Positions 1,497 to 55,013 of a stretch of DNA of 64,000 nucleotides are shown one piece after another. The notes under the pieces are model-generated. The model ran no database searches. It saw only the letters and a program-made list of their open reading frames with translations, and was not told the origin of the DNA. Source of the DNA: an uncultured Bacteroides sp. GTDB lineage: Bacteria > Bacteroidota > Bacteroidia > Bacteroidales > Bacteroidaceae. Where the stretch lies: assembly GCA_947646015.1 (NCBI GenBank), contig CANSEY010000015.1:31330-95329 (forward strand), written 5' to 3'. The position numbers were made by a program, and so were the translations under genes. How positions within the stretch are numbered: the first letter of the stretch is position 1; each line of letters opens with the position of its first letter.

Positions 1497-1531
1497 GAGT
1501 GAAGATTGCTTGCCAGTCTTCGCTCTTTTTA
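1497..1531 (+). terminator. Intrinsic terminator after sulfatase
   Basis: A stem of about 10 bp with G-T wobbles (AGTGAAGATT with AGTCTTCGCT) is followed by TTTTT, 13 bases after the sulfatase stop. It overlaps the first possible GTG codon of the next gene, which argues for a later start there. Confidence 0.6.
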
Positions 1532-1567
1532 TTTCTTTTGCACATCACCATACGAGCAAACAAAATA

Positions 1568-3424
1568 GTGAATAGTAATTTACAGCATATAATAGCACTC
1601 ATTGCAGCCATATTCATATCGGCGGCTCTCCATGCAACAAACCTGAACAAAGAACGACTTACCTTACTCCAGCCACTTGTCGAGCATGATCTTTCTTTCA
1701 ATACAAATATCGATATTACAACGGACAGCATCATCTTATGGGAAAAGCTCTTAAGCCCCGAACTTGAAAAGCAGCAAGAATATCATATTCTGTTTCCATT
1801 GAAAATGATGGCAGTTCAGGCATTAATTACAGAAGGAAATATCAGTCTGGCAGTCAACAACGCCAACTCAATGTATCAGCAAGCCAAAGCTATAGATTAT
1901 CCTTTCGGAACGGCACTGGCATTGCGTGCCCTTGCAGACACCTACCAAAGTTCGGGAAATCCCCAGTCTGCTATAGAGTCTTATGAGGAATCCTTGAAAA
2001 TAATGCAAAAAATTCCGGCAAGTATTCCATATCTTAAGACAAGCATGTTTCATTTGATCCTGAGCAAACTCAAATACAGGCAAATGACAGATATCGAAAA
2101 AGATTTTGCCTATCTGGAGTCTCTTTACCATAAAGAATCAGGTTTGCCCGATGACTTCTATCTGCCTTGCAGCTATGCCTATTATTATATACAGACAAAC
2201 AACCTTCCAAAAGCACTGGAGTATCTGAAACAGCTGGACTCCATCTACGAAAAATATCCGTATCCCTACTATTCTTCAATCAGCAACTATATGTATGCCG
2301 GCTATCATATTGAGTCAAAAGAATATGATAAAGCGCTGAAAGAATATGAAGAATTACTCACCATAACAAAGAAAACGGCTTTATTCAGACATGTTCAGTT
2401 ATTACAGGAACGCGCCAAAGTCCTGGTACTTATGAATCAGAAACAAGAGGCGTGCAAGATTTATGAGGAGATTAATCATCTCAAAGATTCATTGGACGCC
2501 CAAAGTTATCTCAGCCAGATAAACGAACTGCATACCCTGTATCAGATAGATAAAAGCGAACTTAATTATATCAACATACAAAAAAATCTCTATTATTGGA
2601 GTCTGTCTGTGATCTTAGTGATCGTAGTACTGATCATCATTGCCATTTTCCGCATCAAGCGCACCAACAATCGTCTTCTGCAATCACAACAGGAACAGGA
2701 AAAAGCCAAGAAACAAGCAGAAAAGTCTATCCACACCAAAAGCCTTTTTCTCTCCAATATGAGCCATGAGATTCGTACTCCGCTCAATGCTTTATCTGGT
2801 TTTTCAGCTATTCTGACAGAAGAATCCATCGACAACGAAACGAAACAACAGTGCAACGATATCATCCAGCAGAACTCAGAACTGCTGCTCAAACTGATTA
2901 ATGATGTAATTGACTTATCCAGCCTTGAAATTGGAAAAATGCAATTCAAATTCAACGAGTGTGATATTGTAGCGCTATGCAGAAATGTCATCGACATGGT
3001 AGAGAAAATAAAGCAGACTCAAGCGGAAGTACGGTTTTCCACCTCTCTCAGTTCACTGAAGCTGACCACGGACAGTGCCCGCCTGCAACAAGTACTGATC
3101 AATCTGCTTATCAACGCCACAAAGTTTACTGCACAAGGCACTATCACCCTGGAACTGGTGAAACAAACGGAAGATACGGCCCTTTTCTCCGTTAGTGATA
3201 CCGGTTGCGGAATCTCCAAGGAGAACCAGAACAAGATATTCAACCGCTTCGAAAAGCTCGATGAAAACGCACAAGGCACAGGACTCGGATTATCTATCTG
3301 CCAGCTTATCATTGAGCAACTGGGAGGCAAAATATGGATCGACCCGGACTATGACAAAGGAGCACGTTTTCTGTTCACACACCCGATTTGCCATGCGCAG
3401 ATAAAGAAGGAGGAAACACGATGA
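1568..3424 (+). CDS. TPR-containing membrane sensor histidine kinase
   Basis: The frame is open from GTG 1499, but that codon lies in the preceding terminator. The GTG at 1568, just before a signal-like helix (NLQHIIALIAAIFISAALHA), is the likelier start, giving 618 aa. Order: export signal, periplasmic all-helical region with TPR-like repeats (about residues 25-345), one membrane helix (YWSLSVILVIVVLIIIAIF), a Gln/Lys-rich coiled coil, a HisKA domain with acceptor His400 in SNMSHEIRTPLN, and an HATPase domain with an N-box-like segment, G1 box DTGCGI and G2 box GTGLGLSI. No receiver or DNA-binding domain is attached and no response regulator is adjacent, so it is an orphan kinase. Its stop overlaps the next gene's ATG (ATGA), so the two are translationally coupled. 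The stimulus is unknown. Confidence 0.85.
   Translation: MNSNLQHIIALIAAIFISAALHATNLNKERLTLLQPLVEHDLSFNTNIDITTDSIILWEKLLSPELEKQQEYHILFPLKMMAVQALITEGNISLAVNNANSMYQQAKAIDYPFGTALALRALADTYQSSGNPQSAIESYEESLKIMQKIPASIPYLKTSMFHLILSKLKYRQMTDIEKDFAYLESLYHKESGLPDDFYLPCSYAYYYIQTNNLPKALEYLKQLDSIYEKYPYPYYSSISNYMYAGYHIESKEYDKALKEYEELLTITKKTALFRHVQLLQERAKVLVLMNQKQEACKIYEEINHLKDSLDAQSYLSQINELHTLYQIDKSELNYINIQKNLYYWSLSVILVIVVLIIIAIFRIKRTNNRLLQSQQEQEKAKKQAEKSIHTKSLFLSNMSHEIRTPLNALSGFSAILTEESIDNETKQQCNDIIQQNSELLLKLINDVIDLSSLEIGKMQFKFNECDIVALCRNVIDMVEKIKQTQAEVRFSTSLSSLKLTTDSARLQQVLINLLINATKFTAQGTITLELVKQTEDTALFSVSDTGCGISKENQNKIFNRFEKLDENAQGTGLGLSICQLIIEQLGGKIWIDPDYDKGARFLFTHPICHAQIKKEETR
3405..3418 (+). promoter_or_regulatory. 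Strong Shine-Dalgarno for second kinase
   Basis: AAGGAGGAAACACG directly precedes the ATG at 3421. A perfect AAGGAGG is unusual in Bacteroides and it decides the start of the downstream ORF against the earlier in-frame ATG at 3388. It lies inside the end of the upstream kinase gene. Confidence 0.7.
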
Positions 3425-5388
3425 AACGACTGATATTACTGATCATCACCTGCTATGGCCTACTGTCGGGCTATGCAAACACCGATACAGCCTCAGACAG
3501 TCTGCTGCAAGTGTTGCAAACACTGCCGCATGACACCACACGCCTCTCTACCCTGAACGACATTATCAAGATAGAGCAGAACAACTACAAATGTATCCAG
3601 TATTCGGATTCGCTGATGCAGGAAGCGTTAAAACTGAAAAATGACAAGTATGCCAGTTTAGCCGCTTATTATCATTTGTTGTATTATTACAACCGTTGCG
3701 AACAGGATAGTGTAGCCAAATGGATAGTCAAGATGGAACCGTTGGTACAAAAATCCGGTTTATGGGATTATTTCTTCGACGCCCGACGCTTTCAGATTGA
3801 CCTATACACCTTTACCGAACAATATGAGCTTGCCATCAGCGAAGCAAACAAGATGAAACAGAAAGCCCTTGATATTGACAATAACCGTGGAACGGTAGCT
3901 GCTTATCAGTGCCTGTCCAACGCATATATCGGCAGCCAGCGCTGGGACGAGGGGCTCAAAGCATTGGAAGAAGCCTACAGGCTGCTTCCAAAGAATGGCA
4001 ATGCAGTAGTCCATATCTCCGTCCTGTCACAGCTCATATCCGTAACCAAAGAAATGAAGGACAATTACAGGCAACTAAAATACCTGCAAGAGTTGGAAAA
4101 TGTACTCCGTAAATTCATCATTGACAATCCATCTCTAAAAGACGGATTTGCAGACGTATTCATTTTCAATGAGATTTTCTATGCGCATTATTACCTGAAT
4201 ACCAATCAGCCCCAAATTGCTTATTCACATATAGAAAAGTCTAAAAAGTATCTGACTGAAAATACCTATTTCATGTATAAGGTGCTCTACTACGACATCT
4301 ATGCGAAATACTATCAGAGTATCAAACAATATCAGCAGGCATCAGCCTACATCGACACGACATTAACTATGCTCAAGAAAGATTTCACCAGCGACTATGC
4401 CGAACAACTGCTGAAACAGGCTAAAATATGGGTGGAAGCCGGAGATAATAACAGAGCGACAACTCTCTACCAACAGGCACTGGCCATCAAGGACTCAGCT
4501 GCCATGGCACTCTCCAACACCCAAATGGAGCAAATCAAAAAAAGCTATAATCTGGATAAGATAGAACTGGAACAACAAAAGCAGACCAACCAAATACGTC
4601 TGATCAGCCTGATCGTAATCAGTGCCATTCTGATCGTATTATTTATTTCCCTATTCCGGCTCTCCAAAATCCGCAAAGCCCTGAAATATTCCGAGAGCGA
4701 AATACGCAAAGCAGCGGAAACGGTACGGGTAACCAACGAAATAAAAAATCGCTTCCTGTCAAACATGAGTTATAACATCCGGACCCCGCTCAACAACGTA
4801 GTAGGTTTCTCGCAACTCATAGCCAGCGAACCGAATATAGATGAAAAAACAAGAGAAGAATACTCGGCGATCATCCACCAAAGCTCAGAAAGATTAATGA
4901 GACTGGTCAATGATGTACTCGACCTGTCTCGTCTGGAAGCCAAAATGATGAAGTTCCAGATACAAGACTATGATGCTGTCTCACTTTGCAACGAAGTATG
5001 CTACATGGCACGCATGAATAATGAAAAGACAGGCATTCAAGTCCGCTTCACTCCGGAAGTCGAGTCACTGTCCCTTCGCACAGATACCACCCGATTGGGA
5101 TACGCTCTGCTCAGTACCCTGACCTATCCGCATGAACATGAAACAGAGGGACAACAGGAGGAACGGATTATCCGCTTTACATTAAGCCGGAAAGGTGAAA
5201 TGCTTTATTTCCGCATTCTCAACTCTCCATTGGCGGACGAGGCTTTCACCTCACAGGAGACCGGCATCAGGCATGAGATCAACCAGTTATTGCTGGCTTA
5301 CTTCGGAGGAAGCTATCAGGTAAACGCCCGGGGAACGGAAGGCCCGGAAATTGTTTTCACCTATCCCATTGCTTCAGAATCGGAATAA
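3421..5388 (+). CDS. TPR histidine-kinase-like protein with degenerate catalytic core (probable pseudokinase)
   Basis: 655 aa from ATG 3421, which overlaps the previous stop as ATGA and follows a strong Shine-Dalgarno. It has the same architecture as its upstream neighbour: signal peptide (ILLIITCYGLLSGYA), TPR-like periplasmic part, one membrane helix near residue 400 (LISLIVISAILIVLFISLF), coiled coil and a HisKA-like helix. The acceptor motif reads SNMSYNIRTPLN, so Tyr451 replaces the catalytic His. The ATPase part is also worn: the N-box Asn is missing (region TDTTRLGYALLSTL), no DxGxG box can be found (NSPLADE stands in its place), and the G2 box reads ETGIRHEI. The frame is intact for the full length, so it is not a decayed pseudogene. 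It may regulate or heterodimerise with the active paralogue; that is inference. Confidence 0.85.
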   Translation: MKRLILLIITCYGLLSGYANTDTASDSLLQVLQTLPHDTTRLSTLNDIIKIEQNNYKCIQYSDSLMQEALKLKNDKYASLAAYYHLLYYYNRCEQDSVAKWIVKMEPLVQKSGLWDYFFDARRFQIDLYTFTEQYELAISEANKMKQKALDIDNNRGTVAAYQCLSNAYIGSQRWDEGLKALEEAYRLLPKNGNAVVHISVLSQLISVTKEMKDNYRQLKYLQELENVLRKFIIDNPSLKDGFADVFIFNEIFYAHYYLNTNQPQIAYSHIEKSKKYLTENTYFMYKVLYYDIYAKYYQSIKQYQQASAYIDTTLTMLKKDFTSDYAEQLLKQAKIWVEAGDNNRATTLYQQALAIKDSAAMALSNTQMEQIKKSYNLDKIELEQQKQTNQIRLISLIVISAILIVLFISLFRLSKIRKALKYSESEIRKAAETVRVTNEIKNRFLSNMSYNIRTPLNNVVGFSQLIASEPNIDEKTREEYSAIIHQSSERLMRLVNDVLDLSRLEAKMMKFQIQDYDAVSLCNEVCYMARMNNEKTGIQVRFTPEVESLSLRTDTTRLGYALLSTLTYPHEHETEGQQEERIIRFTLSRKGEMLYFRILNSPLADEAFTSQETGIRHEINQLLLAYFGGSYQVNARGTEGPEIVFTYPIASESE

Positions 5389-52830: not shown

Positions 52831-53583
52831 TCATGATACTATATTCTCTCTTAAAAACTCTTCCGCCCGTGCCAACGTCTCCGGCTTGCCGATATCAATC
52901 AGTTCCAGCTTTTCCGTAAGATAACCGTAATAATCCGTTTGCCCGCAGGTAGCCAGATAAAAGTCCATAATAGAGAACTTGCCTTCCCAGCACGGCACTT
53001 CCATCAACAGGAAGACAGCAGGCGAAAAAACATGGATACCGCTAAAGGCATACTCTCTATACAGCGACTCATCATACAGGAAACCTTCGGGCCTCACCTG
53101 TCCCGTATCTTTGTTGATCCATCCGCGCAATCTTTGTTCCGCATCAAAAAGCAGATAACGGGAAGTTTTACGGCGACTGGCGAGCAAGGTAGCTACACTT
53201 CCGTTCCGCAAATGAAAGTCATACAGTTCTTTCAGATTCATATCCGAAAGAATATCCACATTATGCACAAGGAAGGGTTCATCGGAATTTTCAAAGAATC
53301 GACGGGCTTTTCTGATTCCTCCCCCCGTATCGAGCAGCAGGTCCCGTTCGTCGGAAATATGCAACGTCAGTCCGAAATCATTGTTAGCTTTCAGAAAATC
53401 AATAATCTGCTCACCGAAATGATGGATATTAATCACTATTTCGGTAAAACCGGAAGCTTTCAGTTTCAAAATCACATGCTCCAGCATCGGACGTCCGGCC
53501 ACGGGAACAAGGGCTTTGGGCATCGTATCGGTCAGTGGTTTCAGCCGGCTACCCAACCCGGCTGCAAATATCATTGCTTTCAT
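52831..53583 (-). CDS. MurU-like sugar-1-phosphate nucleotidyltransferase
   Basis: 250 aa, a single NTP_transferase domain: MKAMIFAAGLGSRLKPLTDT with the nucleotide-binding G-x-G-x-R-x4-T, then MPKALVPVAGRPMLEHV, the sugar-site segment ETGGG-like DTGGGIRKARRFF near residue 86, and HNVDILSD near 108. Length and motifs fit MurU (N-acetylmuramate-1-phosphate uridylyltransferase) or related hexose-1-phosphate transferases. Its ATG overlaps the stop of the upstream kinase-RapZ gene by one base (TAATG). The pairing AmgK-like kinase plus MurU-like transferase is known from peptidoglycan amino-sugar recycling in Pseudomonas. The sugar here is unknown. Confidence 0.85.
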   Translation of the reverse strand: MKAMIFAAGLGSRLKPLTDTMPKALVPVAGRPMLEHVILKLKASGFTEIVINIHHFGEQIIDFLKANNDFGLTLHISDERDLLLDTGGGIRKARRFFENSDEPFLVHNVDILSDMNLKELYDFHLRNGSVATLLASRRKTSRYLLFDAEQRLRGWINKDTGQVRPEGFLYDESLYREYAFSGIHVFSPAVFLLMEVPCWEGKFSIMDFYLATCGQTDYYGYLTEKLELIDIGKPETLARAEEFLRENIVS

Positions 53584-55013
53584 TACACAGTTGCCTCAAA
53601 AGTACGTTCTATATTCTGTTCGCGGTGCACCAGCTCCACTTTCACGCCAAATTTGCGGTTCAGGTGCTCTGCCAGATGCTGCGCCGAATAAACCGAACGA
53701 TGTTGCCCTCCGGTACAGCCGAAGCAAACGGACAAATTACTGAAGCCACGTTCCATATATCGCTTCACCGAAGCATCTACCAACGCATAGACAGAGTCGA
53801 GGAAACGGAGAATTTCACCATCTTCTTCAAGAAAACTGATCACCGGTTCGTCCAGTCCCGTGAAAGGTTTGTAGCGTTCGTACTTACCGGGATTGTTCAC
53901 GGCACGGCAGTCAAAGACATAACCGCCGCCATTACCGGTAGGATCATCGGGAATCCCTTTCTTATAAGCAAAACTCATCACTTTGACGGTAAGCTGCCGT
54001 TTCTTGAGATCGTCGGTGAATTGCTTGAGTTCGGTAAGTTCGCGTAGCACATTGCAAAGATACGGGTATTCAGGGTACGCCTCTTTGAGCAAGTCACGCA
54101 GGTTCTGGATAGCAAAAGGAACACTCTGGATAAAATGAGGTTTCTTCTCAAAATACCCCCTGAAACCGTAAGCTCCGAGCACTTGCAACGTGCGGAAAAG
54201 AACAAAATGACGAAGCTGACTATAGAAATAGGGCTCGTCGATAGGCTGATATTTGCGCAGGGCATCGATATACTCCTTCAGCAATTCCTGACGGAGACTA
54301 TCGGGATACTTCGCCTTTGCCTGCCACAGGAAAGAAGCGACATCATAATAGAACGGCCCTTTTCGTCCGCCCTGAAAGTCGATAAACCACGGCTCACCGT
54401 CTTTGATCATCACATTGCGGCTCTGAAAATCGCGGTACATAAAAGTAGCGGAAGAACTGCGCAGCAGCACATCACTCATCTTCTGAAAGTCGTCCTCCAG
54501 TTTATCTTCCTGAAATTCCATGCCGGTAGCCTTAAGGAAACAATATTTGAAGTAATTCAAATCCCAAAGGATAGAACGCTGATTGAACTCCGGCTGCGGA
54601 TAGCAACGGGAAAAGTCGAAGCCGTCGGCTCCGGCAAACTGTATGGCAGGAAGCAAACGGACCGTCTTGCGGAGCAACTCTTTTTCCTCTTCGGAAAATA
54701 CGCTGGTAGCACGTCCTTTCTCGATTGCATGAAACAAAAGGGTATCTCCCAAATCTTCCTGAAGATAGTAACTCTTATTTTCGGAAACGATATGAACTTC
54801 GGGTACAGGCAGGCCGGACTTGCGGAAATGGGCTGCCATATAAAGGAAAGCATCATTCTCCTCGACAGACGTGCCACATACGCCGATCAGGGTTTTCGCA
54901 CCTGTCAGCCGGAAGTAGCGGCGGTTGGAACCGGAAGATGGTAATTCTGTTATATTCTCTGCGGGAACTCCCATATATTCCTGATATAGTTTCTGTAGTT
55001 CTTCGGTAATCAT
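53583..55013 (-). CDS. Fusion of APH-type sugar kinase and RapZ C-terminal domain
   Basis: 476 aa from ATG 55013 (MITEELQKLYQEYMG); the upstream part of the frame lies beyond the promoter. Residues about 1-325 are an aminoglycoside-phosphotransferase-like kinase related to AmgK: SSGSNRRYFRLTG near 27, catalytic loop YRDFQSRNVM with Asp195, and metal-binding DFQGGRKGP near 210. From about 340 comes the C-terminal domain of RapZ (VKVMSFAYKKGIPDDPTG, VFDCRAVNNPGKY, TGLDEPV, and CFGCTGGQHRSVY near 431). The RapZ N-terminal ATPase with its P-loop is absent. In enterobacteria this RapZ domain binds glucosamine-6-phosphate, so an amino-sugar-sensing kinase is plausible inference. Confidence 0.88.
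   Translation of the reverse strand: MITEELQKLYQEYMGVPAENITELPSSGSNRRYFRLTGAKTLIGVCGTSVEENDAFLYMAAHFRKSGLPVPEVHIVSENKSYYLQEDLGDTLLFHAIEKGRATSVFSEEEKELLRKTVRLLPAIQFAGADGFDFSRCYPQPEFNQRSILWDLNYFKYCFLKATGMEFQEDKLEDDFQKMSDVLLRSSSATFMYRDFQSRNVMIKDGEPWFIDFQGGRKGPFYYDVASFLWQAKAKYPDSLRQELLKEYIDALRKYQPIDEPYFYSQLRHFVLFRTLQVLGAYGFRGYFEKKPHFIQSVPFAIQNLRDLLKEAYPEYPYLCNVLRELTELKQFTDDLKKRQLTVKVMSFAYKKGIPDDPTGNGGGYVFDCRAVNNPGKYERYKPFTGLDEPVISFLEEDGEILRFLDSVYALVDASVKRYMERGFSNLSVCFGCTGGQHRSVYSAQHLAEHLNRKFGVKVELVHREQNIERTFEATV

Follow-up and report, generated by a model that had tools for sequence, protein, structure and literature searches.

A kinase–RapZ fusion and its MurU-like partner very likely salvage MurNAc in some Bacteroidota, with RapZ-C as a candidate sugar-phosphate phosphatase

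A gene fusing an AmgK-like kinase to a RapZ C-terminal domain (RapZ-C), together with the MurU-like nucleotidyltransferase gene that overlaps it, is very likely a conserved gene pair that salvages MurNAc in some Bacteroidota. We consider it highly probable that the kinase phosphorylates MurNAc at C1 and that the overlapping enzyme makes UDP-MurNAc, as in salvage of the Pseudomonas type. RapZ-C itself looks like a working part of this route, perhaps its missing sugar-phosphate phosphatase, rather than an RNA adapter. For the whole proposal, an AmgK/MurU-type salvage in which we infer that RapZ-C serves as the MurNAc-6P phosphatase, we estimate a probability of about 0.38.

In the proposed route, the CX5RS loop of RapZ-C would act as a cysteine-dependent phosphatase converting MurNAc-6P to MurNAc, a counterpart of Pseudomonas MupP, and RapZ-C would pass the MurNAc on to the kinase domain. 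The kinase would then form MurNAc-1P (the AmgK step), from which the overlapping MurU-like enzyme would make UDP-MurNAc.

Architecture of the gene pair

The pair lies on the reverse strand of the window, the whole 64,000-nucleotide stretch of DNA from an uncultured Bacteroides sp. that was analysed here. Its features are as follows.

53583..55013 (−), fusion gene, 476 aa: very likely AmgK-type anomeric MurNAc kinase plus RapZ C-terminal domain
54243..54953 (−), APH-fold kinase domain, Pfam span aa 21-257
54429-54431 (−), kinase D195
54378-54380 (−), kinase D212
53616..53993 (−), RapZ C-terminal domain, aa 341-466
53922..53933 (−), NGGG, aa 361-364, closing an insert (from alignment)
53886..53888 (−), Gly376, equivalent to pocket His190 in E. 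coli (from alignment)
53694..53717 (−), CTGGQHRS loop, aa 433-440, a CX5RS phosphate-binding-type loop (from alignment and secondary structure)
53581..53585 (−), TAATG, fusion stop and nucleotidyltransferase start, one-base overlap
52831..53583 (−), MurU-like nucleotidyltransferase, 250 aa (NTP_transferase, E 1.4e-23; MurU model; 4y7t)

An earlier note on this DNA had described an APH-type kinase with a complete RapZ-C and a TAATG overlap with a MurU-like gene, all of which we confirmed in the window. The kinase has the APH fold and the catalytic Asp residues, and its best fold match spans aa 1-335 of the fusion protein. RapZ-C is a member of PF22740 (PapZ_C; 118.3 bits against a cut-off of 27, positions 1-120 of 121) and has a true RapZ-C fold by structure comparison. 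The fusion is not a member of the full RapZ model NF003828, where it scored 108.1 bits against a cut-off of 244 and covered model positions 147-277 of 278 only, and it lacks the N-terminal P-loop ATPase half. By secondary structure, the CTGGQHRS loop sits between a strand (426-433) and a helix (439-455).

Probable role of the kinase and nucleotidyltransferase in MurNAc salvage

Both enzymes fall below the curated family cut-offs. The fusion scored 64.7 and 34.1 bits against the AmgK models NF045759 and NF045698 (cut-offs 550 and 500), and because 64.7 bits is far under 550, these models cannot alone fix the function of the kinase. The nucleotidyltransferase scored 132.9 and 104 bits against the MurU models NF045761 and NF045697 (cut-offs 250 and 370), which are the two top families of the 34 that it matched (MurU model E 1.5e-38); it also matches 4y7t (E 3.4e-25). 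The fusion kinase very likely acts like AmgK yet falls outside the equivalogs of the AmgK models.

The functional evidence comes from Tannerella forsythia, whose genome (G296, L068) yields just one hit with the kinase profile, the fusion itself. The papers cited here by PMC number are drawn on as excerpts. T. forsythia AmgK and MurU expressed in E. coli lead to incorporation of, and labelling with, a MurNAc probe (PMC13041923), and since the fusion is the sole kinase match in the genome, we infer that the AmgK expressed in that work is the fusion gene; the term 'RapZ' is absent from that paper. In the excerpted literature, C1 phosphorylation of MurNAc is in print only for this T. forsythia homologue, by way of E. 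coli expression (PMC13041923). MurA was not found in the T. forsythia genome, so UDP-MurNAc must come from MurNAc there, and its formation from MurNAc has been assigned to AmgK/MurU, with a branch point between MurK/MurQ and AmgK/MurU (PMC7670621, in excerpt). The salvage pathway has been described as presumably present in T. forsythia and other Bacteroidetes (PMC5790795) and is cited for T. forsythia by PMC13046382 as well. T. forsythia grows poorly on anhMurNAc (PMC7670621), and this growth occurs despite no AnmK having been detected in its genome.

A MurNAc-salvage role for the kinase is thus very likely, because the sole T. forsythia kinase match is the fusion, AmgK and MurU work in E. coli according to the excerpts, and MurA was not found. 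We take the fusion kinase to be, very likely, the AmgK of Bacteroidota. The earlier proposal of an AmgK/MurU-type salvage pair joined to RapZ-C therefore stands, on the families matched, the recurrence described below and the excerpted report that T. forsythia AmgK and MurU function in E. coli (PMC13041923).

Distribution of the module

The earlier note had suggested a survey of genomes for the fusion and its neighbours. Among 296 genomes from the phylum Bacteroidota, the module was present in 36, with MurU as the wide neighbour and RapZ-C carried in one copy each. The window's genus is patchy, with RapZ-C in G000 and G230 and absent from G238; it was also not found in the control Bacteroides ihuae. 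The best 80 loci from a genome-contig search are Bacteroidota by title throughout, except for L072, titled 'uncultured bacterium'. By tblastn, kinase and RapZ-C are present in 80/80 of these loci and MurU in 78/80, including loci where MurU was missed by ORF calls (e.g. L111) and recovered by tblastn. Among the 78 loci whose kinase ORF was called, MurU lies on the same strand within 400 nt downstream of the kinase in 71, with an overlap of 4 bases in 27.

The kinase profile gave more than 250 bits in 37 genomes and then dropped to 135 bits, the latter for distant kinases of family f17 without RapZ-C. These 37 strong-kinase genomes comprise all 36 RapZ-C genomes and G009 (L158 9090-10801), the sole genome in the sample with kinase and MurU together and RapZ-C absent. 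MurU is beside the kinase in 28 of the 36 RapZ-C genomes. It was not found near the kinase in the other eight, namely L016, L021, L022 and L024, where the stretches are only about 3.4 kb, and G017, G128, G180 and G271, where stretches of about 20 kb were included. Of RapZ-C and MurU, it is RapZ-C that keeps closer company with the kinase.

In seven of the 36 genomes the module is split into three adjacent genes in the order kinase, RapZ-C, MurU (L119 in G031 and L111-L116 in family f4). In G180 and G271 RapZ-C is a solo gene away from the kinase (L117 9935-10336 and L118 9883-10293), and no MurU was found near the kinase or near RapZ-C. The L117 gene shares 4 bases with the beginning of a 545-aa ORF. 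RapZ-C is thus a unit of its own, since it is a separate gene in seven genomes and apart from the kinase in two.

Co-occurrence with AnmK and MurQ

AnmK makes MurNAc-6P, and MurQ is the usual exit of this compound. Pseudomonas offers an alternative in the route AnmK-MupP-AmgK-MurU (PMC13041923, in excerpt). We called MurQ at E 1e-50, a threshold set after seeing the result, and at this post hoc cut-off RapZ-C was found in all 12 AnmK-positive, MurQ-negative genomes of the 296. It was present in 7/8 genomes lacking both enzymes outside family f17, in 4/17 with MurQ and no AnmK, in 13/195 with both, and in 0/64 of family f17. With f17 excluded, RapZ-C occurs in 8/8 families that have a MurQ-negative member versus 3/41 others (p 4e-7, kinship ignored), and within family f16 it occurs in 5/6 MurQ-negative versus 0/10 MurQ-positive genomes. 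The curated MurQ cut-off is passed by 205/296 genomes. Between it and E 1e-50 fall seven others, among them G001, G006, G011, G016 and G086 (placed by E-value), which have AnmK and no RapZ-C. The figure of 12/12 would therefore fall at the curated cut-off, as at least five of the in-between genomes lack RapZ-C.

Genomes with AnmK and no MurQ would be expected to require a phosphatase for MurNAc-6P, and within the module RapZ-C is the strongest candidate for it. A phosphatase is favoured by these 12 of 12 genomes together with the presence of RapZ-C in 36 of the 37 strong-kinase genomes. It is favoured as well by G009, which has kinase and MurU without RapZ-C and in which neither AnmK, MurQ nor a BadF-type sugar kinase was found. 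The co-occurrence concerns the whole module; what bears on RapZ-C itself is the 36/37 link and the solo genes.

Other features of the distribution argue against the phosphatase. AnmK was not found in the six named fusion-bearing Bacteroidales (0/6), in G000 (75% complete) or in G230, and its absence so close to the window disfavours the proposal; in fusion relatives without AnmK, MurNAc-6P would need a MurK-type kinase and RapZ-C would compete with MurQ. In four of the 12 AnmK-positive, MurQ-negative genomes (G017, G128, G180, G271), MurU was not seen in the vicinity of the kinase, which likewise counts against it. Eleven of the 36 RapZ-C genomes are without AnmK, and a link to AnmK alone was set aside as not enriched (25/36, one of them weak in G216, against 207/296 overall). 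In the window's genus, fusion and AnmK alternate, G000 and G230 having the fusion without AnmK and G238 having AnmK without RapZ-C. BadF kinases, present in 7/7 AnmK-negative, MurQ-negative genomes with RapZ-C, were considered as a source of sugar 6-phosphate and given little weight, being equally common in f16 relatives without RapZ-C (10/10).

The RapZ C-terminal domain as a possible phosphatase or sensor

CX5R cysteine phosphatases have a C-X2-G-X2-R-S spacing in a loop placed between a strand and a helix, and RapZ-C shares both the spacing and the strand-loop-helix placement. We aligned 108 of 110 loci, leaving out L051 and L087, in which RapZ-C was missed by the ORF caller and seen by tblastn; the rows are redundant, and L001 is the window's own copy. 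In E. coli numbering, G246, C247, T248, G249, G250, H252, R253 and S254 are invariant in 108/108 rows and the K251 position is Q or R, so that the loop reads G-C-T-G-G-[QR]-H-R-S. The CX5RS loop is present in all 108 Bacteroidota rows and in 4/4 full-length RapZ proteins (Paracoccus, Priestia, Azospirillum and E. coli). The position of His190, kept in the same four proteins, is Gly in 108/108 rows. An insert ending in GGG, its three glycines invariant, precedes the second strand in all Bacteroidota rows, and the NGGG insert is missing from the four full-length proteins.

Excerpted work on E. coli RapZ points in two directions. C247A and C247S each abolish activity, and the authors propose a possible catalytic role for the Cys247 -SH; in a crystal with GlcN6P they saw 'likely a chemically transformed product' (PMC9841335). 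We lean to an enzyme, a role that the earlier note had left out of account, because the Cys is invariant, C247S is inactive in E. coli, a catalytic -SH has been suggested and GlcN6P was likely transformed. Intact GlcN6P also co-purifies with E. coli RapZ (KD 186 nM, and 10 nM for the CTD; PMC7073468, in excerpt), a case of binding without obvious hydrolysis that disfavours a phosphatase, as does the fact that we identified no general acid in RapZ-C.

Relatives of known phosphatases were sought with 43 RapZ-C domains (45 of the best 80 loci checked, with L097 dropped for unknown residues and L100 for a stop; in the alignments L031 is represented by the copy from the window). Against Pfam, at E up to 10, these domains matched PapZ_C, a weak DUF190 and stray families, with no HAD and no phosphatase, so that RapZ-C differs from MupP in not being HAD-fold. 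A RapZ-C profile searched against the PDB matched RapZ alone and no phosphatase, and structure comparison gave no CX5R phosphatase among the matches listed. The lack of a phosphatase fold among the listed structure matches and of a sequence match speaks against the proposal, and any likeness to CX5R phosphatases, with no fold or sequence relative among the matches listed, would be at most convergent. In a broader version, which appears unlikely to us, RapZ-C would represent an undescribed phosphatase fold that acts on amino-sugar 6-phosphates by means of its CX5RS loop. It would serve as the MurNAc-6P phosphatase of Bacteroidota in peptidoglycan recycling, and E. coli RapZ would descend from it, its catalytic pocket having been adapted to sense GlcN6P and bind RNA.

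The most serious rival, plausible at somewhat less than even odds, is that RapZ-C is a non-catalytic sensor of MurNAc-6P, GlcNAc-6P or GlcN6P that tunes the fused or partner kinase, setting flow to UDP-MurNAc against catabolism via MurNAc-6P. It accords with the tight and specific binding of GlcN6P by the E. coli RapZ CTD (PMC7073468, in excerpt), with the invariant pocket core (T248, G249, H252, R253) and with the location of RapZ-C, mostly fused to or adjoining the kinase. The MurK/MurQ versus AmgK/MurU fork in T. forsythia is, by the excerpted account, a real branch point at which such a sensor could act (PMC7670621), and a phosphatase is less needed where the tested fusion-bearing Bacteroidales have no AnmK. 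Against a sensor stand the loss of E. coli function on changing Cys247 to Ser, which is odd for a pure sensor (PMC9841335, in excerpt), the placement of RapZ-C away from the kinase in two genomes, and the universal replacement of the pocket residue His190 by Gly. On balance we lean slightly towards the phosphatase.

Glycan neighbourhood and GlcN6P control

The window contains a large host-glycan locus (28456-60677) with two GH20, sulfatases, a GH2 galactosidase, a fucosidase, a GH18 with LamG, a SusD and a hybrid regulator. Elsewhere in the window, a 666-aa protein (3388-5388) matches HisKA (E 1.6e-15) but, at E up to 1e-6, no HATPase; it directly follows a full histidine kinase (1499-3424).

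The earlier note had tied the pair to the glycan locus as a GlcN6P-controlled module salvaging host hexosamines, a reading that we now find improbable. The neighbourhood, encoding GH18, SusC/SusD-type proteins, sulfatases, GH20, GH2 and fucosidase, does invite it. We sought five proteins of the locus (GH18, SusC, SusD, regulator and sulfatase) in relatives, and at least one was present in 14/52 loci of at least 14 kb among the best 80, against 78/80 of the best loci for MurU. Besides MurU, every gene cluster is confined to 10 or fewer of the best 80 loci, some of which are short. With MurU as the only widely recurring neighbour, a functional link was rejected; the glycan locus is real, and its closeness to the kinase/MurU pair is local and mostly incidental. 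Among curated families the best matches, all under their cut-offs, are to MurNAc enzymes, and the evidence favours recycling of MurNAc from peptidoglycan over salvage of hexosamines from the host.

The GlcN6P control is weakened too. In nine genomes with the module, GlmZ was not found in any (9/9; the E. coli control was positive), and no GlmS exceeded the model cut-off in three, T. forsythia, Parabacteroides gordonii (G299) and G230; that T. forsythia retains the fusion in spite of this speaks against the control. T. forsythia is also stated to lack GlmS in PMC5790795 (in excerpt). G230, which belongs to the window's genus and is 99% complete, has no full-length GlmS above cut-off, and neither has G299. 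E. coli His190 touches the bound ligand in the crystal (PMC5737377, in excerpt). Its change to Gly in 108/108 rows, together with the GlmZ result and the lack of a GlmS above cut-off in 3/9, indicates that neither the GlmS circuit of E. coli nor the usual pocket for GlcN6P is present here.

RNA contacts

Excerpts on E. coli RapZ list seven basic RNA contacts (PMC9841335) and describe the basic C-terminal tail as an RNA-binding part (PMC7073468). Taking the listed contacts, the Bacteroidota rows mostly keep K170 (K/R in 106/108), R184 (108), K194 (R/K in 78) and R196 (K in 76), and they lose R211, R238 and K251, mostly to acidic, Phe and Gln residues respectively; the tail was not seen in the Bacteroidota domains.

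An RNA adapter as in E. coli, with a target mRNA or small RNA from amino-sugar metabolism, has the true RapZ-C fold, the RefSeq name 'RNase adapter RapZ' and the four retained positive positions in its favour and is the least probable reading, given the three replaced contacts and unseen tail, the Gly at a position where H190A is inactive in E. coli (PMC9841335, in excerpt), and the GlmZ and GlmS results.

Discussion

The Bacteroidota module resembles Pseudomonas AmgK/MurU, with its MupP and AnmK, in pairing what is very likely an anomeric MurNAc kinase with a MurNAc-1P uridylyltransferase and, in this sample, in being tied to the absence of MurQ. It differs in the attached or adjacent RapZ-C and in scores far below the NCBIfam AmgK/MurU cut-offs. 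From T. forsythia AmgK/MurU we saw no difference, the protein family and architecture being the same. Compared with E. coli RapZ, as excerpted, the Bacteroidota domain has no P-loop ATPase half, has Gly for His190 and the NGGG insert, and has lost three of seven RNA contacts and the basic tail.

Within the open-access literature, none of the matches listed deals with the RapZ domain that this kinase carries and none joins RapZ with MupP, and a search for RapZ, bacteroid and kinase gave nothing related. The word 'phosphatase' is absent from PMC5737377 and PMC9841335. Two RefSeq records, from Bacteroides finegoldii (L187) and Parabacteroides distasonis (L188), label the fusion 'RNase adapter RapZ'. 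This label hides what is very likely a MurNAc kinase and so masks MurNAc salvage in gut and oral Bacteroidota.

Were RapZ-C a sensor, the module would offer a ready model for a RapZ domain reporting sugar phosphates to an enzyme without RNA. If RapZ-C instead performs the MurNAc-6P step, as we tentatively prefer, AnmK-positive, MurQ-negative Bacteroidota would have an exit from MurNAc-6P, and the unusual chemistry of E. coli RapZ noted in the excerpts, its Cys247 and transformed GlcN6P, would acquire an evolutionary reason.
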